DNA from: a virus
IMG/VR virus record: IMGVR_UViG_3300037296_000148
Span: 1-31,157 of that record
Direction: 5' to 3' (one strand)
DNA length: 31,157 bases
Shown: one piece after another, positions 71 through 30,012 of the stretch
How positions within the stretch are numbered: position 1 is the first letter of the stretch
Layout: the number at the start of each line of letters is the position of its first letter
Translations under genes and position numbers: made by a program
The notes under the pieces: generated by a model
Told to the model about the DNA's origin: nothing
Databases searched by the model: none
What the model saw: the letters and a program-made list of their open reading frames with translations, nothing else

Positions 71-712
71 ATGGCAAGGAATCCACGCGCTAATGCGAAC
101 GACGATGACAAAATTATCACAGTTCTGCCGGGCGGAAATTTGACTCTCAAAGACGCAGCGGCGGTTCTTTCGTATACCGCCAACGGCTTGCGAGACTGGG
201 TCGCGCGGGGTGCGCCGCACACGCCGGGCCGCGCCGGCGGCCAGGCGATGACGGTCAATATTCGTGATCTCATGGAATGGAAAGTGGCCACCGCGGTTGA
301 AGGCATGATGGCTGACGACGGGGAAGAGCACAACGAGGGCCGGGCAAAAGCGGCATACGCGCACTACCGCGCGATCCGCGCCGAAGCCGACGTCCGGCGT
401 GAGCTGGGCGCGCTTGTCGCAGTCGACATGATAGCTGACGTTATTGAAGAAGATTATCAGCGCGTCAGAAGCCGGCTGAACAGCGTCGCTGGTCGCGTGG
501 CCGTCCGTGCCGCCGCCGAAACAGACGCATCAATCGTGCGCACGATGATATCCAAAGAGATAAATGCCGCCCTGGCGAACATGGCTGAAGCTGATGACAT
601 CACAGAGCGCGCGGCGGGCAATCCAAACGCATCCGTTCATGACGTCTTGATGATCGGCGGCGGTGAGCACGGCGCGTTCGATGAATACGAGGACGACTTA
701 GATGTTAATTGA
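71..712 (+). CDS. Terminase small subunit, Nu1-like
   Basis: This 213-residue protein probably recognises the packaging site (cos) on phage DNA and hands it to the large terminase. An N-terminal helix-turn-helix-like segment (about residues 22-50, containing LKDAAAVLSYTANGLRDWV) resembles the winged-helix part of lambda Nu1. The middle is a charged helical stretch and the tail is acidic (EYEDDLD), which may bind the large subunit. ATG at 71 is preferred over an in-frame TTG at 53 because AGGA lies 8 bases upstream. The gene overlaps the large terminase start by 11 bases, so translation is probably coupled. Family assignment rests on size, helix-turn-helix and position; I am fairly confident of the role. 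Confidence 0.85.
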   Translation: MARNPRANANDDDKIITVLPGGNLTLKDAAAVLSYTANGLRDWVARGAPHTPGRAGGQAMTVNIRDLMEWKVATAVEGMMADDGEEHNEGRAKAAYAHYRAIRAEADVRRELGALVAVDMIADVIEEDYQRVRSRLNSVAGRVAVRAAAETDASIVRTMISKEINAALANMAEADDITERAAGNPNASVHDVLMIGGGEHGAFDEYEDDLDVN

Positions 713-2786
713 GCTTCTAGCCAACCCCACCGCCCTGCGCAAAGCTATCGCAGTCAAGCGGGCCCGCGCATTTGCACCGACGCCGGACGTCACAGCAGAC
801 GAATGGGCTGATACATATCGCGTTGTTCCTTCTGAGACCTCCGCTGTTACCGGTCGCTGGGACACATCTATGTATGAAGTTGCGCGCGGACCAATGCGCG
901 CCATCACAGAACCTGGCGTCCGCATCATCAGCGGCGCTGCATCTGCGCAGATTTTCAAGACGTCGACAGGTGAGACGGCCATCGGATACTTTATGCATCT
1001 CAATCCACGACCCATTCTAGTATACCAGCCTACAGACACATCGGTTGCCGCTTTCGTTGACGCGAAGCTTGATCCTATGATCAAGTCTTCGCCTGTATTA
1101 GCGCAGCTCTGGGGTGGCCGGGCCGCGCTTGAGCGTAAGAACGACAAGTTTGTGCATGCAAAGAAGACATTTGCGGGCGGCTACGTCGAGATCCTGACAG
1201 CTAATAGTCCATCTAATACCGCGTCGCGCTCTGCCGGCGTTGTCTTCATGGACGAGATCGACAAGTTTGAGCTGACGCGAGACGGTGACGCGGTTGCGCT
1301 GATCGATGAGCGGCTGAAAGGCTTCACCGGCGAAGAGCTTAGCATCAGAATGAGCACGCCGACGATTGAGGGCGAAAGCCCTATCGCCGCGGAGTATCAG
1401 AAGTCAGACATGCGCAAGCCGTATGTTGAATGCCCGAACTGCAGCGAGTGGCATTACTTCAAATTTGAGCACGTGCATTATAAAGACGCGAGAAACAAAG
1501 CTGATCCATCAATCGCAGCTTACAATTGCGAGTCCTGCGGCGTCGACTGGACCGAGGCGGAGCGCGTCAAAGCATTGACGACGAAAGACGCAATCAGCTG
1601 GCGTCAGACAAAGCCTTTCAGATGTTGCGATGAGAAGCAGCATCCAGAAATCGAGAGACTTTGGGAGCACGATGGTCACGTAGAGCGCGCGATATGCAAG
1701 CATTGCGGCACCCGAGCCGTGGTGAACAGGCATGCCGGGTTCTGGGCTTGGGAGCTTTACCACCCGCGCCGCTCTTGCGAAGACTTGATCCGCGCCTGGC
1801 TGGATTGCGCTGGCAATAAAGGCAAGATGCAGAACTTCATTAACAGCAAGCTTGCAGAGACATGGAAGGTTCAGCAAGAAGACAGCGCTGACATCGATCC
1901 GGAGCAGTTTGCAGCACGCGTTGAGCCAACTTGGGACCTGTTGCCGTCTGACATCCATCTATTGACGATGGGCGTCGACGTGCAGCCGCGCGGCACGAAG
2001 AGCACCGGCCGGATTGAATTCGAAATAGTGGGCTGGGGCAGCGGCGAAGAAACTTGGTCCGTCGCATACCATATCATAGAGGGCGATCCGGACGACGGCG
2101 CAGTATGGTCTGCGCTTGATGACATCAGAAAAGCGGCATACGCAACGACGGACGGCCGACAACTGCGCGTCCAGGCAGCTTGCATCGACACTGGCGGGCA
2201 CAACATTGATGCAGTGATGAGCTACGCCGCGGCGCGCAAGCGTGAACGCGTCTGGGCTATCAAAGGCGCGTCAGAACAGAACGGCAATCGAAATCCGATC
2301 TGGCCGATCATCGCGCCGAAGACGATCCGGAACGGCGCTAAGCTTTTCATCATCGGCACGTCAGCTGCGAAAGACTGGGTTGCGTCATGCGTTGCGAAAA
2401 CGCAAGCAGGGCCCGGCTATATGCATGTTGGATCAGACCGCGACGAGTCTTGGTTCGCGCAGATGCTGAACGAGAAGCGCGTGTCATTCATGCACAACGG
2501 CAGGTCCAGAACCTCGTGGCGTGTGCGCGCGTCAGGCGCACGCACTGAAGCGCTTGACTGCCGCGTATATGCCAAGGCCGCTCTGGAGGGGCTGAAGCGT
2601 GCCGGCTTCAAGACTGGCGTGCATACTGCAGCAGAGATCGCCGCGCCGGCGCCTGCCCCGGCTCCCGCAGATCAGGAAGAGGTCAGCAGCGCGACCACGA
2701 CAGAAGCCGCACCGCAGCAGCAACCCCGCATCCGCCGGCCAAAAAAGCGCAGACCGCCCGTCACCCGTTCAAATAGCTTCTGGTGA
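702..2786 (+). CDS. Terminase large subunit, lambda gpA family
   Basis: The 694-residue packaging motor couples ATP hydrolysis to DNA translocation and cuts concatemers at cos. Visible motifs are a Walker A-like segment GAASAQIFKTS (residues 78-88, a deviant P-loop as in the gpA family), a Walker B VVFMDEIDKF (180-189), paired cysteines at 244/247 and 276/279 and again near 308-335 (CKHCG) suggesting zinc binding, and a nuclease-type aspartate in GVDVQ (D426). Length and motif order match the gpA/GpA_ATPase family. ATG at 702 overlaps the end of the small subunit gene, with GAGGA upstream. The C-terminus is Ala/Pro-rich, then basic, and may contact the portal. Confidence 0.95.
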   Translation: MLIELLANPTALRKAIAVKRARAFAPTPDVTADEWADTYRVVPSETSAVTGRWDTSMYEVARGPMRAITEPGVRIISGAASAQIFKTSTGETAIGYFMHLNPRPILVYQPTDTSVAAFVDAKLDPMIKSSPVLAQLWGGRAALERKNDKFVHAKKTFAGGYVEILTANSPSNTASRSAGVVFMDEIDKFELTRDGDAVALIDERLKGFTGEELSIRMSTPTIEGESPIAAEYQKSDMRKPYVECPNCSEWHYFKFEHVHYKDARNKADPSIAAYNCESCGVDWTEAERVKALTTKDAISWRQTKPFRCCDEKQHPEIERLWEHDGHVERAICKHCGTRAVVNRHAGFWAWELYHPRRSCEDLIRAWLDCAGNKGKMQNFINSKLAETWKVQQEDSADIDPEQFAARVEPTWDLLPSDIHLLTMGVDVQPRGTKSTGRIEFEIVGWGSGEETWSVAYHIIEGDPDDGAVWSALDDIRKAAYATTDGRQLRVQAACIDTGGHNIDAVMSYAAARKRERVWAIKGASEQNGNRNPIWPIIAPKTIRNGAKLFIIGTSAAKDWVASCVAKTQAGPGYMHVGSDRDESWFAQMLNEKRVSFMHNGRSRTSWRVRASGARTEALDCRVYAKAALEGLKRAGFKTGVHTAAEIAAPAPAPAPADQEEVSSATTTEAAPQQQPRIRRPKKRRPPVTRSNSFW

Positions 2787-2912: not shown

Positions 2913-4121
2913 ATGACGAACTACACAAACAGCGACGACGAGCTGAAGACATTCAAGACGGCGGACATCCGCGGGCTTCTGCCGCTGATGGGCTGGCACG
3001 TAGTGAGCCAGGCCGAAGCTGCGCGGGTTGACAAGCACCGCACTAAGCCGGGCTATTGCTTCACAAACGGGTCGCAGTTCATGAACGTATCACTTAGCAA
3101 CCAGGGTGACGGAACCTGGATGTGGTTCTCTGTGACCGGCTACATTTGCGGTAAAGCACACGGAACAATTATTGATATTGCGAAAGATCATGTGGGTGGC
3201 AACTTCGGCAAAGCCCGCGTCTTCTTGCGTGAAGCTCTGTCTATCTCCCGGCCCTCTACCCCCGTCCCCTCTGCCGCCGCCACCAATACCACTCCTCTCC
3301 AGAATCCTTCTGCAGTTGTGTGTTCCACCCGCCCCCTTCCTGCCCCCGTAGAGATCGACGAAAAGAAAACGCCGGACCAGCTTGAAGCTGAATACCGCGC
3401 TTTGTCGACAAGCATCAAAGCCGGCAAAGCTAAGCACTCTTTGTTTACGACCCGCGGCATCGATCTTGTTGACGATACGTTCAGCTACGCAATGCGCGAG
3501 ATGAACAACCACAGCGGTTACGTTTTTCCGTATTATAATTTTAATGAAGGATCTAACGGCATTTCGTTTGCTGGCTACGAGATCAAAAAAGAGAATGGCT
3601 TTAAGCAATATGCAAAAGGCGGCCGCGCCGGATTCTGGATCGGCGGGGACGTTGAGACGTCGACCGTCATCGTCTGCGAGAGCCCGCTCGACGCGATGGC
3701 ACATTCGATCATCACGCAATCCGGTGCGCTCTACGTCGCCGTGCGCAGCGGCTCTGAGGCTGACGTCGTGCGATTCATCGCACACAAGTTCAAGCGCGGC
3801 TACGCCGGTCACGTCAGGCTTGCGTGCGATCACGACGCCGCCGGATATGGTTACGTCAATAAGATCTGGTCCGGCATTGACCGCCTCGGCTTGAAAGCTG
3901 AAGGCATCGTTGTCACGCAAGAGAACCCGTTGAATGGTGAAAACGATCACTGCGACGTCTTGAAGAAGATCGTCAATATCAGAGATGATGAAAACGGTAA
4001 GGCCGCGCGGAACTACATGCGCACCCGCATTGCTGAACTGCAAGAAGATGCGCGCCGCATTGAGATGCCATTCCGCGAGACAGTGACGTTTCAGCAAGCG
4101 AGCGCAGAACTTGCGATGTAG
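2913..4121 (+). CDS. Toprim-domain primase-like protein
   Basis: This 402-residue protein is probably the phage primase or a primase-like replication factor. The N-terminal part contains a degenerate zinc-finger-like segment (TGYICGKAHGTIIDIAK, 75-91), reminiscent of CHC2 primase fingers. After a Pro/Ala-rich linker (about 110-147) comes a Toprim domain: VCESPLDAMA with E256, then ACDHDAAG with D306 and D308, and a later NDHCDVLKK resembling the KDxND tail of Toprim_2 proteins. ATG at 2913 is chosen over TTG at 2883 because GAGGA sits 7 bases upstream. Its place between terminase and connector genes is unusual; the only other replication gene seen is the VapE helicase at 27820. The linker is encoded by the dispersed pyrimidine repeat. 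Confidence 0.8.
   Translation: MTNYTNSDDELKTFKTADIRGLLPLMGWHVVSQAEAARVDKHRTKPGYCFTNGSQFMNVSLSNQGDGTWMWFSVTGYICGKAHGTIIDIAKDHVGGNFGKARVFLREALSISRPSTPVPSAAATNTTPLQNPSAVVCSTRPLPAPVEIDEKKTPDQLEAEYRALSTSIKAGKAKHSLFTTRGIDLVDDTFSYAMREMNNHSGYVFPYYNFNEGSNGISFAGYEIKKENGFKQYAKGGRAGFWIGGDVETSTVIVCESPLDAMAHSIITQSGALYVAVRSGSEADVVRFIAHKFKRGYAGHVRLACDHDAAGYGYVNKIWSGIDRLGLKAEGIVVTQENPLNGENDHCDVLKKIVNIRDDENGKAARNYMRTRIAELQEDARRIEMPFRETVTFQQASAELAM
3313..3347 (+). repeat. Dispersed pyrimidine-rich repeat, copy A (inside Toprim gene)
   Basis: This copy begins CAGTTGTGTGTTCCACC and ends in CCGCCCCCTTCCTGCCC-type sequence. It shares nearly every base with the copy at 10998-11035 and lies inside a longer C/T-rich stretch (3241-3350). 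It encodes part of the Pro-rich linker of the Toprim protein and lacks one T relative to the other copies. Confidence 0.75.
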
Positions 4122-4127
4122 CTAATC

Positions 4128-4157
4128 CCATCGTTTTTCCATGCCCGCCGGTAACGT
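4128..4157 (+). promoter_or_regulatory. Late-promoter-like element P1
   Basis: CCATCGTTTTTCCA, a 10-base spacer and TAACGT. This is the most divergent of five copies of a 30-base element with invariant spacing. It follows the Toprim stop codon and precedes the connector gene. Its -10-like box ends 21 bases before ATG 4179, which argues for that start rather than ATG 4164. Confidence 0.65.
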
Positions 4158-4178
4158 GCTGGCATGGATACTGCATCA

Positions 4179-6339: not shown

Positions 6340-6341
6340 TC

Positions 6342-6371
6342 CCATCGTTTTTCCGCGCAGCGATATATCGT
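6342..6371 (+). promoter_or_regulatory. Late-promoter-like element P2
   Basis: CCATCGTTTTTCCG, a 10-base spacer and TATCGT, immediately after the portal stop codon. The -10-like box ends 27 bases before the capsid fusion ATG at 6399. Upstream bases CTAATC are shared with P1 and P3. Confidence 0.75.
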
Positions 6372-8903: not shown

Positions 8904-9230
8904 ATGACGCCAACTTTTCAATCCGCACGCGACAGCTGGCATCAGAGCCTACCGATCGTCATGCTTGACTGCAGCCGCGGTCAGCGCGTCGCGATCGATG
9001 CGACAAACCCCGCAGTCAGTGATGCATTCGCAGACCTGACGGCCGTCATGATGACGTCGAGCGTCGACTGTTTCGTGACGATCGGAAGCGACCCCGTCGC
9101 GATCGATGATTCCGGTGCATTTCTTCTGACAGCCGGCTTGCCGTTCCACACGCTTGTCAAGTCAGGCAATTCGATTTCCGCGCTATCCGTCGCAGATGCC
9201 GGCGCGCTCTACATCGTGCCATTGGCGTAA
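8904..9230 (+). CDS. Uncharacterised head protein
   Basis: I do not recognise this 108-residue protein. It is predicted to be mostly beta strand (LPIVMLDCSRGQRVAID, SSVDCFVTIGSDPVAI, AGALYIVPLA) with few charges and no membrane segment. It sits between the capsid cement gene and the arginine-repeat gene, so it is probably a virion component such as a second decoration or head-completion protein. GAGG lies 9 bases upstream of ATG 8904. The sequence does not settle the function. Confidence 0.6.
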   Translation: MTPTFQSARDSWHQSLPIVMLDCSRGQRVAIDATNPAVSDAFADLTAVMMTSSVDCFVTIGSDPVAIDDSGAFLLTAGLPFHTLVKSGNSISALSVADAGALYIVPLA

Positions 9231-9234
9231 CGTC

Positions 9235-9585
9235 ATGCTAATTTCAGTCGCAACCCTCTTCAGCCAGCCGCGCCGCCGCAGCTTGCTGTCAGGCATTCCC
9301 GGCGGCGGCGGTGGCACCGTTATTTTGCCTTTGCCGTCGTATGACGCAGCACCTGCGACGCCGATTGACGCAACTGCGGCAACGATCACAGCCGCGCGCC
9401 GCGCAACGCGTCTTCAAACGCTGAGCGCATCTGCAGCGACGATCACAGCAGCGCGCCGCACAACGCGCTTTCAGACGCTGAGCGCATCTGCAGCAACGAT
9501 CACAGCAGCGCGCCGCACAGAGCGACAGCAGACACTCAAATCAACAGCGATGACGATTACTGTCGTCAGAAAGAGAGCAGCATAA
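9235..9585 (+). CDS. Arg-rich tandem-repeat protein
   Basis: A 116-residue protein of unknown function. After an N-terminal segment and a Gly-rich hinge (GIPGGGGGTVILPLP) it carries three full copies and one partial copy of a 19-residue unit, AATITAARRTTRFQTLSAS-like, each with three or four arginines. The DNA repeats with an exact 57-base period. The region is strongly basic, and arginines recur in a way that could form a charged helix face or bind nucleic acid or the capsid interior. No clear ribosome-binding site precedes ATG 9235, so translation may depend on coupling to the upstream gene, which ends 5 bases before. It overlaps the next start (TAATG). Confidence 0.6.
   Translation: MLISVATLFSQPRRRSLLSGIPGGGGGTVILPLPSYDAAPATPIDATAATITAARRATRLQTLSASAATITAARRTTRFQTLSASAATITAARRTERQQTLKSTAMTITVVRKRAA
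9376..9579 (+). repeat. 57-base tandem repeat (3.5 units)
   Basis: The anchor ACGATCACAGC and its variants recur at 9382, 9439, 9496 and 9553, exactly 57 bases apart. Units 1-3 differ by few substitutions; the fourth is partial and more diverged. The unit encodes a 19-residue Arg-rich repeat in frame. Confidence 0.9.
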
Positions 9586-10963: not shown

Positions 10964-11046
10964 ACCATCCCTCCCTCCCCCCTTCCCTCTTTCTTCCGCA
11001 GTTGTGTGTTTCCACCCGCCCTCTTCCTGCCCTGCATGCGCTAATC
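10964..11046 (+). repeat. Polypyrimidine tract with dispersed repeat copy B
   Basis: This gap is almost entirely C and T for about 70 bases. Positions 10998-11035 are the clearest copy of the dispersed repeat (GCAGTTGTGTGTTTCC followed by ACCCGCCCTCTTCCTGCCC). The transcript of the preceding operon would be C-rich and G-poor here, as expected for a Rho utilisation site. A late-promoter-like element follows directly. Confidence 0.7.
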
Positions 11047-11076
11047 CCATCGTTTTTCCGCGCGACGCAGTATCGT
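11047..11076 (+). promoter_or_regulatory. Late-promoter-like element P3
   Basis: CCATCGTTTTTCCG, a 10-base spacer and TATCGT (followed by TG), ending 25 bases before ATG 11102. It would drive the tail genes. Confidence 0.75.
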
Positions 11077-19665: not shown

Positions 19666-20711
19666 TGGCGAAGGGCCCGTATCTTATCCGCGTCGTAAAC
19701 TCAAAATACTGGTATATTCGTGAAGCTGGCGGCGGGAAGCATAGCACAAGAGAGACTGACAGGGGTTTAGCGTCTGCAGTTCTTGCGCGCTACATCGACA
19801 GCAAGACCGCCGCAAAATCGACGGCGGGCGTGACGTTCGGCGACGTGCTGAACGCATATGAAGAAGACCGGCGCACGCTGAATGAGAAGACATATCTGAA
19901 CAAGTGGCAATACGTGATTAAGCGCTTGCGGCGGCGCGACGGGCACCGGCCGCTTGAAGAGATCACGACGGATTGGGCGAAGACATACGTCAAAGACCGG
20001 CTTGAAGAGGTCCAAGAGCCGACGATCAGGCAAGAACTGGCGTCAGTGATGGCGGCTTGGAATGTTGCAATTCGCAACAGTATCACAACCATTCCCGTGC
20101 CCGTCTTCGCGCTGCCGGCCGCGTCCGATCCGCGTGACGACTATCTTATGCGTGATGAAGCTGATCGATTGATTGCAGCTGCAGATAAGCCGCATGTGCG
20201 TTTATTCATCAGATTAGCGCTTGCGACAGCCGGCCGGCATGAAGCTATTTTGCAGCTGACATGGTCGCAGATAGATCTAGAACAGAATATTGTAGACCTG
20301 CGCCGCCGCGCCGCGCCGGTGCCGCGCAAACATCGCGCAGGTCCGAAGTCAGCAGAGCCCAGACAAAAATTGCGGGGTCATGTTCCGATCAGCGGCGCGA
20401 TCGTCGAAGAGCTGCACGAAGCCCGCGCGCGGGCCGTCACGGATCACGTCATTGAATACCGTGGTCAGCCGATAAAATCGATCAAGAACGGCTTCAGAGC
20501 GGCGGTTATCGCTGCAAAGCTAGATCCAGACTTCATCACGCCGCACGCGCTGCGTCACACAGCAGCGACTTGGGCGATGCAAGCCGGCGTTGATGTGATC
20601 AAAGTCGCAGGCATGATGGGTCACAAAGACACGAAGATGATCCTTGCTGTCTACGGTCACCATCACCCAAAATTCATGGCGGGGATCTCTGACGCGCTAC
20701 GCATTGACTGA
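19665..20711 (+). CDS. int: Tyrosine integrase
   Basis: A 348-residue site-specific recombinase. The catalytic domain (about 160-348) has R191 in ATAGRHEAI, H294 and R297 in HALRH, H320 in MMGHKD and the nucleophile Y330 in AVYGHHHP. A core-binding domain (about 55-150) precedes it, and the N-terminus (YWYIREAGGGKHSTRET) looks like an arm-binding or short beta-sheet region. ATG 19665 overlaps the repressor stop (GTGATG). It most likely acts at the tRNA-Thr fragment at 22908-22957. The last 15 bases overlap a convergent gene on the other strand. Confidence 0.95.
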   Translation: MAKGPYLIRVVNSKYWYIREAGGGKHSTRETDRGLASAVLARYIDSKTAAKSTAGVTFGDVLNAYEEDRRTLNEKTYLNKWQYVIKRLRRRDGHRPLEEITTDWAKTYVKDRLEEVQEPTIRQELASVMAAWNVAIRNSITTIPVPVFALPAASDPRDDYLMRDEADRLIAAADKPHVRLFIRLALATAGRHEAILQLTWSQIDLEQNIVDLRRRAAPVPRKHRAGPKSAEPRQKLRGHVPISGAIVEELHEARARAVTDHVIEYRGQPIKSIKNGFRAAVIAAKLDPDFITPHALRHTAATWAMQAGVDVIKVAGMMGHKDTKMILAVYGHHHPKFMAGISDALRID

Positions 20712-21260
20712 TAATCGGCGCGGTGCGGTTGCGGTGAATGCGTATGCGCAATCATCAGAGAAGTGATTTTCGCAAATCAGTTGCGCGTCGCCCTGCGCAT
20801 CGCCTGACAAGTCAAGGCCCACGACATTTGCAAAGGTGGGATTGTGCATTCCGCCGGCGTTCATCGACAGCATGAGCAGCGCAAAGCTTTCTTTTGCAGC
20901 TGAACGTGTTCGCTTGTTGGTAACGAAGTCGCGGACATCAAGCCGTCGCGAGATAAGCTTTGATCGAAGCGCGTGAAGTTGTGAGGTGAGGTGAGCGCCC
21001 TTGGCGCTATCAGCGTCGCACTGATCGAACCGCCACGGCTCATCGCATCTCAAAAAGCCGGTCAGGCTGGCAGTTGATGCGACGCTAATAACGCGGTCGC
21101 ATAGTTCTTCTGAAACGTGTTCGCGTCGCTTGAGTGATAGTGAGATTGAACGCTCTATCGTATCTGCGCTTGTCATCATCGTGATCAAGTCACGAATTTC
21201 AGCGGTATGTGTTTCAGACATCGGCGCCGGCGAAATTTCTTCAAGATATGCGTTTCTCAT
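20697..21260 (-). CDS. Uncharacterised leftward protein
   Basis: I do not recognise this 187-residue protein. It is largely helical, has a basic central part (SKLISRRLDVRDFVTNKRTRSAAKES) and a C-terminal HFSDDC; no membrane segment is seen. It lies between integrase and lysis genes in the opposite direction, where lambda-like phages often carry lysogenic-conversion or regulatory genes. ATG 21260 is chosen because GTGGAG lies upstream, and a TATAAT box (21276-21281) precedes it. That box overlaps the half-site ACAAC of an inverted repeat (21281-21308), so expression may be repressed in lysogens or controlled by the phage repressor. Confidence 0.6.
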   Translation of the reverse strand: MRNAYLEEISPAPMSETHTAEIRDLITMMTSADTIERSISLSLKRREHVSEELCDRVISVASTASLTGFLRCDEPWRFDQCDADSAKGAHLTSQLHALRSKLISRRLDVRDFVTNKRTRSAAKESFALLMLSMNAGGMHNPTFANVVGLDLSGDAQGDAQLICENHFSDDCAYAFTATAPRRLSVNA

Positions 21261-21275
21261 GTTTGCTCCACGTGC

Positions 21276-21308
21276 ATTATACAACATGAACATACAGCTA
21301 TAAGTTGT
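21276..21308 (-). promoter_or_regulatory. Promoter and operator for leftward gene
   Basis: Read on the minus strand, a perfect TATAAT (21276-21281) lies 15 bases before ATG 21260. ACAAC (21281-21285) and GTTGT (21304-21308) are inverted halves 18 bases apart around it. The -35 region is weak, as expected for a regulated promoter. Confidence 0.5.
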
Positions 21309-21345
21309 TAAAATCGCTACAAAGTTTCAGACAATCCACATGTTT

Positions 21346-21375
21346 CCATGGTTTTTCCGACACGGGCTGTATCGT
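21346..21375 (+). promoter_or_regulatory. Late-promoter-like element P4
   Basis: CCATGGTTTTTCCG, a 10-base spacer and TATCGT (followed by TG), ending 26 bases before the endolysin ATG at 21402. It differs from the consensus 14-mer at one base. Confidence 0.75.
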
Positions 21376-21401: not shown

Positions 21402-22055
21402 ATGGATCTTAAAATTGGCGATACACAACTGATCATAGCGACTGCGCGCGCTGAAAATCTGTTGCGCAATGAGCTGGCTTACGCACTTGCTACGACGTAT
21501 CACGAGACCGCTTTCACAATGAAACCGGTCAGAGAAACGCTTGCGAAAAATGACGCCGAAGCCATCCGGATCCTGGATAAATCCTGGTCCGCCAAAAAAT
21601 TGCCCTGGGTGAAGATCCCATATTGGCGCTATGACGATGCTGGCCGGTCGTGGCTGGGTCGTGGATACGTGCAGCTGACTTGGTATGTGAATTATCTTGC
21701 GATGACGCGACGCCTCGGCGTGGACCTGATGACTGACCCGAACGCGGCCCTGCGGCCCGACGTGGCGGCCCGGATCTTAATCATCGGCATGAAAGAGGGC
21801 ACGTTCACCGGTAAGCGGTTGAGCGACTATATCACTCTGAAGAAGAGTGACTTCAAAAGTGCGCGGCGGATCATCAACGGCACAGACAAAGATGATCAGA
21901 TTGCAGCTTATGCGCGTGCGTATGACGCTGCGCTGACCACGGCCGGCTACGGCGTCGACCCTGCTCTGCCTGTCAAGATCGAACATCAGAAGCCTGCGGC
22001 GTGCCTGTTCGGCCCCTTCCTGCCCTCGAGCTGGCAGAAGATCTGGACGCGCTGA
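21402..22055 (+). CDS. Endolysin, glycoside hydrolase 19-like
   Basis: A 217-residue muralytic enzyme. TTYHETAFTMKPVRE carries the probable catalytic Glu (E35), and SWLGRGYVQLTWYVNY (about 83-98) is the signature seen in family 19 chitinase-type endolysins that cleave peptidoglycan. No signal peptide or membrane anchor is visible, so it needs a holin to reach the wall. The C-terminus (PFLPSSWQKIW) is aromatic. ATG 21402 has GGAG upstream; a GTG start 54 bases earlier would lie inside the promoter element. The stop overlaps the inner spanin start. Confidence 0.9.
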   Translation: MDLKIGDTQLIIATARAENLLRNELAYALATTYHETAFTMKPVRETLAKNDAEAIRILDKSWSAKKLPWVKIPYWRYDDAGRSWLGRGYVQLTWYVNYLAMTRRLGVDLMTDPNAALRPDVAARILIIGMKEGTFTGKRLSDYITLKKSDFKSARRIINGTDKDDQIAAYARAYDAALTTAGYGVDPALPVKIEHQKPAACLFGPFLPSSWQKIWTR

Positions 22056-22372
22056 TGATGGGCCTGTTCTCAAATGTGAAGCTGATCCTGTCCGCCGGGG
22101 CCGTCGTTGCCGCGGTGATTGGCGGTCTATATGTGCGTGCGCTATCCGCTGAAGCAGACGCCGCCAGACTTTCGGCAGAGCACCACAAAGCCAGGGTTCT
22201 GGCCGTCGAGGCTGCGGCTGAGGAGATGCAGCGGCAGTTCCAGGCGATCGAAGCCGTGAGAAAGAATATCGCAATTGAAAAAGATGCGTCGCTGAAGCGA
22301 CTCGGGGCGTCTAACGACGCGTGCCTCGACATGGGCCTGCCGGCCGGCGTCTTCGGAAAAATGGGAGGGTAG
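22055..22372 (+). CDS. Inner-membrane spanin, Rz-like
   Basis: A 105-residue protein with one N-terminal membrane helix (about 9-27: KLILSAGAVVAAVIGGLYV), followed by a long charged helix (about 30-80: ALSAEADAARLSAEHHKARVL, QRQFQAIEAVRKN) that would span the periplasm. With the lipoprotein encoded next it would form a two-part spanin that disrupts the outer membrane. The start overlaps the endolysin stop (TGATG); a second ATG follows immediately. The end lies 5 bases before the outer spanin. Confidence 0.8.
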   Translation: MMGLFSNVKLILSAGAVVAAVIGGLYVRALSAEADAARLSAEHHKARVLAVEAAAEEMQRQFQAIEAVRKNIAIEKDASLKRLGASNDACLDMGLPAGVFGKMGG

Positions 22373-22393
22373 TGGGGTGGTGGAATATAAGCC
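22361..22393 (+). repeat. G-rich repeat copy with GGTGGAATATAAG
   Basis: ATGGGAGGGTAGTGGGG followed by GTGGTGGAATATAAG. The 13-base string GGTGGAATATAAG recurs at 29828-29840, in both places followed 8 bases later by CAAAAGT. It looks like the dispersed pyrimidine repeat read on the opposite strand. It overlaps the end of the inner spanin and the start of the outer spanin. Confidence 0.55.
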
Positions 22394-22658
22394 TTTCTTT
22401 CAAAAGTGGACGCGTCCTTTCTTCTTCGCAATTTGTGTGTTTCCACCTGCCCTTTTCCTGCCCTCTTGCTCCTCCAGCCAAATAAAAATGGCTGAATATC
22501 AAAATCTTCCAGAATCCAAAATTTCCTGCCCCCTGCCCTCCCAAGCGCAAATCTTGACTGATCAATCGACGTATCGGGACTTAGCAGAGAGCCGGATTGA
22601 AGCGCTGGCGGGGTGGCGTGATTGTCACGCTGCCCTGACCATCGTGAACGGCGATTAA
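22377..22658 (+). CDS. Outer-membrane spanin lipoprotein, Rz1-like
   Basis: A 93-residue protein starting at GTG, with GGAGG upstream. The basic N-terminus (YKPFFQKWTR) is followed by a hydrophobic segment (FFFAICVFPPALF) and a lipobox LPSC with C31, so it should be lipidated and sent to the outer membrane. The mature part is Pro-containing (LPESKISCPLPSQAQI), then helical. Order and overlap with the inner spanin fit a two-component spanin pair. Part of the signal peptide is encoded by dispersed repeat copy C. A strong hairpin terminator follows 4 bases after the stop. Confidence 0.75.
   Translation: MVEYKPFFQKWTRPFFFAICVFPPALFLPSCSSSQIKMAEYQNLPESKISCPLPSQAQILTDQSTYRDLAESRIEALAGWRDCHAALTIVNGD
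22421..22464 (+). repeat. Dispersed pyrimidine-rich repeat, copy C (in spanin gene)
   Basis: TTCTTCGCAATTTGTGTG then TTTCCACCTGCCCTTTTCC then TGCCCTC. It aligns with copy B with few changes and encodes the hydrophobic part of the outer-spanin signal peptide. Confidence 0.7.
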
Positions 22659-25806: not shown

Positions 25807-26397
25807 GTGGATGGAAAACAAGTGGAGCAGCGGCTCCAGGCCCTGGTGGGCACCGGGGCAAAGGGTTGGCAGTCACAAGCTGCGGATCTTCTCGACGTGT
25901 CGCAGCGCACAATCGCGCGCAACATCGCAACGCCCACGCATGAGTTCCTCAAACGCTTGGCGCAATATGATACGGAGTTCGGCATGATGCCACTTGATGC
26001 CATGGCCGCCGGTGCCCGTGACTGGATTATCGGACATTCAGCAGCCGAAGTTGACACGACTGACATCTTCCTCACGCACTTGCCGAAGCCCACGTTTTTT
26101 GTGCGTGCATCGCGCAGCATTGATGACGTCGGACTTTACGTGACTTGGCTGGACGCGCCTACGCCTGACCAGTCGCGAGAGCTCTTAGCTGAAGCGAAGA
26201 AGATCGTCATGGACTTCATCGACAACCCGGACCGGACGATGGATGCGGATGACATCGCAAAAGCGGTCATTGCAAGCGGAAAGCCTGCAAATCAAAGTGC
26301 GCCGATTTTAAAGCTAATTGCAGAAAGCCGGACGGAAAAGCTGGCAGAGGTCATGCGCATGCTCAAGTTGTATAAGTATAACCCGCCGCCACGCTGA
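25807..26397 (+). CDS. Helix-turn-helix regulator
   Basis: A 196-residue protein beginning at GTG 25807 with AGGAG 7 bases upstream. WQSQAADLLDVSQRTIARNIATP (about residues 23-45) has the form of a helix-turn-helix. The middle contains TDIFLTHLPKPTFFVRASRS and the C-terminal part is helical (QSRELLAEAKKIVMDFIDNPDRTM). It is the only rightward gene in a long leftward region, and the shared TTGTCCAC-like motif lies in its control region, so it could be the regulator that reads that motif. The end overlaps a convergent gene by 35 bases. Family not identified. Confidence 0.7.
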   Translation: MDGKQVEQRLQALVGTGAKGWQSQAADLLDVSQRTIARNIATPTHEFLKRLAQYDTEFGMMPLDAMAAGARDWIIGHSAAEVDTTDIFLTHLPKPTFFVRASRSIDDVGLYVTWLDAPTPDQSRELLAEAKKIVMDFIDNPDRTMDADDIAKAVIASGKPANQSAPILKLIAESRTEKLAEVMRMLKLYKYNPPPR

Positions 26398-26578
26398 CGG
26401 CGCGCTGACGTGCATCATAGAGCACGACGTAGGCATTGACGCCGGTCCAAGCGATCCACGCGACCAGCGCGCATAGGCTCAGGACCGCGGCAATCTCGAC
26501 GGCCTCAATGCGGCCGTCGTCGTCGATATCGAAGAGGTCACGCAGCACTATGTTAGTCTGACTTTTTCGCAAAGCCAT
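26363..26578 (-). CDS. Membrane protein with EF-hand loop
   Basis: A 71-residue protein. Residues 17-28 read DIDDDGRIEAVE, a full EF-hand calcium-loop pattern (D-x-D-x-D-G-x-I-x-x-x-E), followed directly by a membrane helix (about 29-50: IAAVLSLCALVAWIAWTGVN). The helix before the loop (IVLRDLF) would be the entering helix. It is the last gene of a leftward operon of small membrane proteins under a late-promoter-like element. Overlaps the upstream gene by 26 bases and the convergent regulator by 35. No strong ribosome-binding site is seen. Confidence 0.6.
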   Translation of the reverse strand: MALRKSQTNIVLRDLFDIDDDGRIEAVEIAAVLSLCALVAWIAWTGVNAYVVLYDARQRAVSVAAGYTYTT

Positions 26579-26987
26579 TCAGCATGCGGGAGAGGAATTT
26601 CGTTGTGTCCGGGTAGAGGGTCATGCCCAGAACGGAGTAGCGCCGGCGCTCAGCGGCGGGCAGCGTCATGTGCCAGCTCTTCATGTGCAAGTAGACGCTG
26701 ACAGCGGACGCACCTTTAAAAACCACGTCACAATAAAAGCCGATATTGCGCATCGTTGCGTAAGTCGCCAAGTCGTTCCACTCGACGATTTTGACGGCGA
26801 TTTGCCAGTATGCCGAATTGCCGGCGGCAGCGGCGAAGCCAAGGCAGATAGCAATTGCGAAGACGCGGGATGCTGGGTCAGAACCGTATTTGATACGCGG
26901 TGCGAACGCGCGGATACCCATCGCGCAAATGACGATCAGGACCAGGCCCGCGGCGAATGAGAGATAGTAGCCGATCGGCATGGTCAT
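26553..26987 (-). CDS. Polytopic membrane protein
   Basis: A 144-residue protein with at least two clear membrane helices (about 5-25 YLSFAAGLVLIVICAMGI and 41-62 VFAIAICLGFAAAAGNSAYW) and a possible third near 85-100, then a basic, polar C-terminus. No enzyme motif is seen. As a member of the same operon as the small membrane proteins at 27152-27591 it may belong to lysis, superinfection exclusion or membrane remodelling. ATG 26987 overlaps the stop of the preceding 55-residue gene (ATGA). Confidence 0.6.
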   Translation of the reverse strand: MTMPIGYYLSFAAGLVLIVICAMGIRAFAPRIKYGSDPASRVFAIAICLGFAAAAGNSAYWQIAVKIVEWNDLATYATMRNIGFYCDVVFKGASAVSVYLHMKSWHMTLPAAERRRYSVLGMTLYPDTTKFLSRMLNGFAKKSD

Positions 26988-27151
26988 GAGATATTACCTT
27001 TTTCATGTTGGTCTTTTAAAAATGCGAGAAGAAAGTCACTCTGATAAACGGATTCAGAAATAGCTTTACGCGACTCGTCAAACGCCTTTCGTGCGTCGAC
27101 GACTTCTGACTTTGAGGGATCTTTGATTTTGGTTTTGGTGAAGGGCCACAT
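26984..27151 (-). CDS. Small acidic-basic protein, 55 residues
   Basis: A short gene encoding MWPFTKTKIKDPSKSEVVD at the start and LAFLKDQHEKGNIS at the end. It is charged, probably helical, and has no membrane segment. ATG 27151 directly abuts the TAA of the preceding gene, and its own stop overlaps the next start (ATGA), so it is embedded in a translationally coupled chain. The tight packing supports a real gene despite its small size. The function is unknown. Confidence 0.65.
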   Translation of the reverse strand: MWPFTKTKIKDPSKSEVVDARKAFDESRKAISESVYQSDFLLAFLKDQHEKGNIS

Positions 27152-27427
27152 TTACTGTGCGCCACCATTATTATTGCGATAGATCACCTGAGTGATCAGT
27201 TCGTTGTTTTTCTCGACGACGCGCGATACTTCTTTTTGCGCAACAGATGCTTCAAGCAGAGCCCTGACGACTTCGCCGCGATCCTCTCGAGAGAGTGAGT
27301 GCAGGGCTTGATTCTGTCGGTAGACCATGACAAGGCCGAACATCGCAATGACAAGCAGCGCGCCAAGAAGGCCGCTGCCGGCGATGGTCCCGATGGCGCT
27401 AGATGCGCCCGTTGCGAGGTCTTCCAT
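27152..27427 (-). CDS. Small membrane protein, holin candidate
   Basis: A 91-residue protein starting MEDLATGASSAIG, with one membrane helix (about 15-36: IAGSGLLGALLVIAMFGLVMVY) followed by a long charged helix (RQNQALHSLSREDRGEVVRALLEAS, SVAQKEVSRVVEKNNEL) of coiled-coil character. ATG 27427 follows an AGGA-like site; an ATG 30 bases earlier would overlap the preceding gene. Late-type promoter control and small membrane character make it a candidate holin, antiholin or membrane scaffold, but no family signature is seen. Confidence 0.6.
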   Translation of the reverse strand: MEDLATGASSAIGTIAGSGLLGALLVIAMFGLVMVYRQNQALHSLSREDRGEVVRALLEASVAQKEVSRVVEKNNELITQVIYRNNNGGAQ

Positions 27428-27429
27428 TT

Positions 27430-27591
27430 TTAATCCTTGGTGTCGGCATCGTTGCAATTGGAACTAAACTGGAAGTTAAGAGCATATGTTGCAGCCATTG
27501 CGACGATAGCCGCCACTTCAACGCCAATGCCGGCTTCTAAAAGCTCTACGCCGACAAGGACGCCCAGTGCGATTGCTGTTAAACTTGCCAT
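27430..27591 (-). CDS. Two-helix membrane protein, holin candidate
   Basis: A 53-residue protein with two hydrophobic helices (about 3-20 SLTAIALGVLVGVELLEA and 24-44 GVEVAAIVAMAATYALNFQF) and a polar tail (SSNCNDADTKD), the layout of small two-helix holins. ATG 27591 is chosen because the late-promoter-like element ends at 27620 and would place RNA start near the alternative ATG 27618; AGG precedes 27591 at a suitable distance. It is first in the leftward membrane-protein operon. No holin gene is seen in the rightward lysis cassette, so the holin may be encoded here. Confidence 0.65.
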   Translation of the reverse strand: MASLTAIALGVLVGVELLEAGIGVEVAAIVAMAATYALNFQFSSNCNDADTKD

Positions 27592-27619: not shown

Positions 27620-27649
27620 AGAGTATCAGCCGGAACGGAAAAACGATGG
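27620..27649 (-). promoter_or_regulatory. Late-promoter-like element P5
   Basis: On the minus strand CCATCGTTTTTCCG (27649-27636), a 10-base spacer and TACTCT (27625-27620). The -10-like box is less conserved. It lies 28 bases before ATG 27591. Confidence 0.7.
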
Positions 27650-27671
27650 GAGTTAGAAGCTGATCGAATGC

Positions 27672-27702
27672 GGGGCAGGAAAGGGGCGGGTGGAAAACAA
27701 CT
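27672..27702 (-). repeat. Dispersed pyrimidine-rich repeat, copy D
   Basis: On the minus strand: GTTGTTTTCCACCCGCC then CCTTTCCTGCCCC. It is located between the helicase terminator and late-promoter-like element P5, the same arrangement (repeat then promoter) as copy B with P3. The leftward transcript is C-rich and G-poor here. Confidence 0.7.
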
Positions 27703-29800: not shown

Positions 29801-29840
29801 CAGTTGAAGAGGGGAAGGATGGGGGTGGGTGGAATATAAG
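29801..29840 (+). repeat. Dispersed repeat, inverted copy F
   Basis: CAGTTGAAGAGGGGAAGG then ATGGGGGTGGGTGGAATATAAG. It is the G-strand version of the pyrimidine repeat and shares GGTGGAATATAAG with 22378-22390. With copy E it makes an inverted pair inside the origin region. Confidence 0.55.
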
Positions 29841-29982: not shown

Positions 29983-30012
29983 TTGTCGTATTCCACCCGC
30001 CCCCTTCCCTAC
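29983..30012 (+). repeat. Dispersed pyrimidine-rich repeat, copy E
   Basis: TTGTCGTATTCCACCCGCC then CCCTTCCCTACC. It aligns with copies A-D from the TTCCACCCGCCC core onward. Confidence 0.65.

Follow-up and report, generated by a model that had tools for sequence, protein, structure and literature searches.

Where does this phage keep its holin? Holins are difficult to identify from sequence, and to our knowledge many phages of marine and soil alphaproteobacteria have genomes in which none is annotated. The window, i.e. the whole stretch of 31,157 bases analysed here, is a virus record with a siphovirus-like gene order. It carries endolysin and spanin genes on one strand and a compact operon of five small genes on the other.

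Genomic context and relatives

The rightward genes code for terminase, portal, capsid and tail proteins, followed by an integrase-like gene and an endolysin-Rz-Rz1 cassette (21402-22658). Beyond Rz1 come a leftward early block, a rightward rep-like gene, the five-gene leftward operon, a leftward VapE-type gene (PF05272, E=2e-52) and a rightward tail gene. In the sister phage L009, homologues of the last two rightward genes of the window directly precede TerS. Thus, the record is probably near-complete and circularly permuted.

Based on the terminase, the nearest cultured phages are the Roseobacter phages CRP-406, CRP-811, CRP-823 and CRP-831 (33-35%). Closer relatives are a prophage of Luteovulum azotoformans (L010/L109, 71%), L097 (72%) and L009 (54%), and these sequence affinities point to a Rhodobacterales host. 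No match at the DNA level was found in the phage collection, and searches of viral contigs with VapE or g4 peptide patterns or with the exact promoter sequence identified no relatives. A tRNA scan of the window found none. Within the ORF at 9154-9585, three 57-nt tandem units (9369-9560) generate a 19-residue protein repeat (TITAARRTTR.QTLSASA). A leftward gene of unknown function, coding for 198 residues (20697-21293 (-)), lies between the integrase and endolysin genes, with a counterpart (36%) before the lysis cassette of the sister phage L088.

A lysis cassette without a visible holin gene

The rightward cassette comprises the following genes:

21402..22055 (+): GH19-like endolysin (phrog_181, E=1.5e-29), no membrane segment, promoter box at 21344
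22001..22372 (+): Rz-like inner-membrane spanin (phrog_5151, E=0.008; 30% to Rz of L088, E=5e-7)
22377..22658 (+): Rz1-like lipoprotein spanin (45% to L088 Rz1; 44% to Rz1 of the L. azotoformans prophage)

The endolysin matches PF00182 at E=2e-4, below the cut-off. Read from its start at 21402, it has no N-terminal membrane (SAR) segment, which distinguishes it from pinholin/SAR-endolysin systems. Being devoid of a membrane segment, it needs a holin. A preliminary description of this DNA had reported none in the cassette. We likewise saw none there, nor any plausible extra membrane ORF outside the called genes of the window, in which the only small membrane genes are Rz, Rz1 and the operon genes g1, g2, g4 and g5 (see below).

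Two phages with head genes homologous to those of the window, L088 and the L. azotoformans prophage, have a gene for a 2-TM membrane protein between endolysin and Rz (L088 13320-13532; L114 17616-17837 for the prophage). This protein is absent from the window and has no sequence relation to g1-g5. Its identification with g1 was considered and rejected on sequence comparison.

Five small genes on the opposite strand

The minus strand of 26363-27591, opposite to that of the endolysin and between the rep-like and VapE genes, holds five tightly packed ORFs:

27430..27591 (-): g1, 53 aa, small membrane protein, first in the operon (from ORF, hydropathy and best-scoring frame)
27152..27427 (-): g2, 91 aa, N-terminal membrane helix, then a charged coil; predicted N-out/C-in
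26984..27151 (-): g3, 55 aa, small soluble charged protein starting with MWPF
26553..26987 (-): g4, 144 aa, three membrane helices and a basic C-terminus; best holin candidate
26363..26578 (-): g5, 71 aa, EF-hand-like loop DIDDDGRIEAVE, then one membrane helix

The preliminary description had proposed an operon of five small leftward genes, closely packed with zero-gap or overlapping junctions, four of them for membrane proteins, and including a 55-residue gene. Our analyses agree with this picture. With a codon model trained on the long genes of the phage, each ORF scores best in its own frame, although the margin is small for the 55-residue g3 (0.138 vs 0.075). The g1/g2, g2/g3, g3/g4 and g4/g5 junctions are a 2-nt gap, 0, -4 and -26 nt, respectively. 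Hydropathy detects membrane segments in g1, g2, g4 and g5 and none in g3. The two-helix character ascribed to the 53-residue g1 holds in part: one clear helix (6-24) passes the 19-residue threshold used for membrane helices, and a probable second one (25-41) is weaker.

A late-type promoter in common with structural and endolysin genes

The following promoter elements were identified:

4126..4140 (+): late promoter box upstream of the gpW-like gene
6340..6354 (+): late promoter box upstream of the protease/capsid gene
11045..11059 (+): late promoter box upstream of the tail genes
21344..21358 (+): late promoter box with 2 mismatches, upstream of the endolysin gene
27637..27651 (-): late promoter box, leftward operon
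27620..27625 (-): -10-like hexamer TACTCT, 11 nt past the box of the leftward operon
27671..27696 (-): GC-rich upstream element TTTCCACCCGCCCCTTTCCTGCCCCG, also at the tail operon promoter (11009-11036)

The 15-base box TCCCATCGTTTTTCC is present in four exact copies, at 4126, 6340 and 11045 (+) and at 27651-27637 (-), and in the fifth copy at 21344. With up to 3 mismatches allowed, 5 matches were found against 1.0 expected, and none of 100 shuffles reached 5. As the boxes precede the gpW-like, capsid, tail and endolysin genes as well as the leftward operon, the late-type promoter assigned earlier to the latter is supported; no copy was found before VapE. Four of the five copies show a common layout, with a TATCGT/TACTCT hexamer 11 nt past the box and then a leader of 25-28 nt to the ATG. 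At 4126, the hexamer is TAACGT, and the leader is 6 nt long if translation starts at 4164 or 21 nt long if it starts at the next ATG, 4179.

The promoter that precedes the gpW, capsid and tail genes of L009 and L097 is analogous, though not the same (GGCC..TTTC..TATAGT). One variant of this element also stands ahead of a leftward operon at the same place (L009 7602-, L097 846-), whose first gene in L009 codes for a membrane protein of phrog_6420. Thus, the group characteristically has a leftward late operon at this position, and the content of this operon varies. In the sister phages (L009 5462-7562 (-); L010 6866-7189 (-)), a C-terminal-anchor membrane protein (phrog_6420, of unknown function) and a metallophosphoesterase-like exonuclease replace g1-g5.

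The g4 family

Window g4 strongly matched 2 of 394 genomes of the L. azotoformans family. Among 390 genomes of the order, a three-sequence profile then detected homologues in nine (E<1e-5). Ten prophage loci carry g4 sequences that align over their full lengths, giving an 11-member alignment with the window. We also used a window-free profile, composed of the ten prophage members from Rhodobacteraceae-type loci. It retrieved window g4 among 356 ORFs with E=2.9e-25, with none of 2000 shuffles scoring as high, and the g4 of Sulfitobacter phage M39 at 1e-17. M39 was also found by tblastn with the g4 of the prophage locus L130; the weak Achromobacter phage hits obtained similarly with that of L126 were rejected by the g4 profile. 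The tblastn searches of cultured phages with window g4 gave no match, and those with window g2 and g5, as well as with two g4 homologues, gave nothing useful. The g4 alignment A5 identified no relatives in viral contigs, and a class-wide search outside the order yielded, besides G150 itself, one marginal hit only. No significant match to the family was found in Pfam (window, L123, L124 and M39 members), PHROG or NCBIfam, and that of a g4 homologue to a PHROG holin was not significant (E=0.21).

The members are 128-153 residues long (144 in the window). A simple predictor based on hydropathy and a positive-inside count gives g4 three helices and an N-out/C-in topology, with 0/3/2/8 K+R per loop in the window protein, i.e. 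no K or R ahead of helix 1 and eight after helix 3. Not all members show three clear helices by hydropathy. An AlphaFold2 model from the single sequence had a mean pLDDT of 50 and was discarded.

With its three helices, predicted N-out/C-in topology, basic C-terminus and late-type expression signals, g4 resembles the class I holins of the lambda S type, and like those its relatives are encoded beside endolysin and Rz/Rz1. It differs from them in having no sequence relation to them detectable in Pfam, PHROGs or NCBIfam, in the length of the family (128-153 aa), in its constant position behind two coupled small genes and, in the window, in its location on the other strand from the endolysin.

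Linkage of g4 to lysis genes in prophages

All ten prophage loci contain g2-like, g3-like and g4 genes in this order, with ends that overlap or nearly touch. The g2-like proteins (66-89 aa) have one N-terminal membrane helix followed by a coil, and the g3-like proteins are 54-67 aa long. Window g2, g3 and g4 have the same order and similar sizes, with junctions of 0 and -4 nt. An endolysin gene directly follows g4 in nine of the ten loci, and the enzymes belong to five unrelated types:

Amidase_3: L123, L129
muramidase: L124, L130
Amidase_2: L126, L128, L132
GH19-like: L127
phage lysozyme: L133

The tenth locus, L131, has no adjoining endolysin gene. The GH19-like endolysin behind g2-g3-g4 in L127 is 42% identical over 156 aa to that of the window (blastp, E=1e-35). 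In L123, L127, L128, L129 and L130, Rz/Rz1-like genes come next, and no other obvious small membrane gene is found between endolysin and spanins. In L124, L126 and L132, the endolysin gene is followed by that of another membrane protein, and thus g4 may not be their sole holin. In phage M39, the order is an endolysin-like gene (no Pfam match; assigned by reading), g2, g3, g4, Rz-like and Rz1-like genes, and terminase. The window differs from these arrangements, with its endolysin gene about 4.5 kb away from g4 on the other strand.

As the same membrane gene set pairs with unrelated endolysins and occupies the holin position, g2-g3-g4 is best read, from gene order and sequence, as a putative holin module. 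Its association with five endolysin types would make the g4 family a recognisable holin candidate for phages annotated without one. No description of the g2-g3-g4 set was found in a limited literature search. The novelty lies in the g4 family and its three-gene context, and in the module being cleanly separated into an opposed operon under the same promoter.

Two additional arrangements were observed. The bacterial genome G163 carries g2-g3-g4 twice, in nearly identical copies with no adjacent endolysin (L131 1031-1878; L139). In L130, an ORF for a three-helix membrane protein (417-869 (+)) lies ahead of g2; it may be an extra lysis gene in a position comparable to that of g1.

The other genes of the operon

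Window g2 and g3 are the positional counterparts of the g2 family and of the 54-70 aa g3 genes of the other cassettes. The prophage and M39 proteins make up a coherent g2 family, with leave-one-out E values from 5e-4 to 1e-18 (3e-15 for M39). Within its set, window g2 diverges most, and the family profile did not recognise it (E about 1; hhalign P 0.015); g3 sequence similarity is weak even between cassettes. Sequence homology of window g2 and g3 to the family could not be established, and their membership in the conserved set is thus a positional claim.

g1 and g5 are additions peculiar to the window phage. No relatives of either were found, and g1 had no hit among 14,558 ORFs of related loci. 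The g5 loop fits the 12-residue EF-loop motif; its EF-hand_6 match (E=0.022, score 14.9) is below the Pfam cut-off of 25, and calcium sensing by g5 is therefore only a possibility.

Proposed role of the operon and alternatives

Based on the homology of g4, the linkage of its family to endolysins and the absence of another holin candidate, the leftward operon is most likely the holin module. We are fairly confident that it represents the membrane half of the phage lysis system, split from its endolysin. The preliminary description had suggested that a separate late operon supplies the missing holin and its partners, and the g4 homology and the gene order in nine of ten prophages and M39 speak for this. 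It had emphasized the 53- and 91-residue proteins, and the conserved member turned out to be the 144-residue g4 instead. g4 is most likely the holin, given its position, its topology and the elimination of other candidates.

We infer the following course of lysis. Late transcription of the operon would start at a promoter of the class that also serves the capsid, tail and endolysin genes. The three-helix g4 would most likely accumulate in the inner membrane and then open it, giving the GH19-like endolysin, itself devoid of an export segment, access to the cell wall. Rz and Rz1 would then disrupt the outer membrane. g2, with its N-terminal helix and predicted cytoplasmic coil, and the small soluble g3 would most likely act in timing or as helpers, as a co-holin or antiholin pair. 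In related cassettes, g2-g3-g4 is directly beside the endolysin; in the window phage, the module would have moved to the opposite strand. Such a split, in which two opposed operons carry the same late promoter, may be a simple way to swap membrane and cell-wall modules independently. A more elaborate version, which we regard as unlikely, is that Rhodobacteraceae-type phages have a new holin made of three components, g2, g3 and g4, the last of them founding a holin family, and that in the window phage the operon adds the hairpin g1 and a calcium-sensing membrane regulator, g5, the separate operon setting lysis timing and being able to respond to ions.

The hole-former might instead be g1, as a 53-residue hairpin, or a g1-g2 pair, with g4 as regulator or partner. 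This possibility deserves some attention but is doubtful. g1 is small, comes first in the operon and has one clear and one probable membrane helix, and the g2 family is conserved beside g4 elsewhere. In the mycobacteriophage system documented in PMC13056207, LysF1a (two TMDs) and LysF1b (one N-terminal TMD, N-out/C-in) jointly lyse efficiently, and g2 has the predicted topology of LysF1b. However, related cassettes that keep g4 have no relative of g1, and the divergence of window g2 also argues against such a pair. Alternatively, g2-g3-g4 might condition the envelope or time lysis without forming the pore, the holin being an unrecognised gene. The additional membrane proteins after the endolysins of L124, L126 and L132 would fit this idea, which is nevertheless improbable: between endolysin and spanins, L123 and L127-L130 offer no obvious alternative, and the window has no other small membrane ORF, even if the record could lack a short end piece. 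The exclusion system suggested earlier, or another membrane-protection function, would be in line with small membrane proteins encoded on the strand opposite to the structural genes. It is very improbable, as the promoter is of the late type common to capsid, tail and endolysin genes and g4 is found inside lysis cassettes of other phages; this reading would also leave the phage without a holin candidate.

Comparison with paired and dispersed lysis systems

Mycobacteriophages are known to have pairs of holin-like proteins in which one member is single-helix and N-out/C-in (PMC13056207). Like the genes of the window operon, those of LysF1a and LysF1b in F1 mycobacteriophages are tightly coupled, and g2 has a LysF1b-type layout by hydropathy and charge, with a single N-terminal TMD, a predicted N-out/C-in topology and a long cytoplasmic helix. 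The likeness to g2 is one of predicted topology. The mycobacteriophage system differs by its Gram-positive host and its two-helix partner, and the part of the article consulted describes no g3-like third gene.

Lysis genes outside a single cassette are found in Campylobacter Fletchervirus, in which holin, endolysin and spanin genes lie apart in the genome (PMC7692668). No lysis parts are clustered in these phages. In contrast, the window keeps endolysin, Rz and Rz1 together and displaces only the membrane module, to the opposite strand, with the promoter class kept.

A GC-rich repeat

Six copies of a GC-rich repeat, made up of TTCCACCCGCCC and a subsequent pyrimidine-rich TTCCTGCCC part, occur with at most one mismatch, some of them intragenic (3323-3334, 11010-11021, 22441-22452 and 29991-30002 (+); 27684-27695 and 29823-29834 (-)). 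Two copies are directly upstream of the tail and leftward late promoters, and the repeat may be a regulator or replication site. Within 22420-22470, the copy inside Rz1 encodes the signal peptide and lipobox of this protein (...CVFPPALFLPSC), an example of a DNA element reused as protein sequence.
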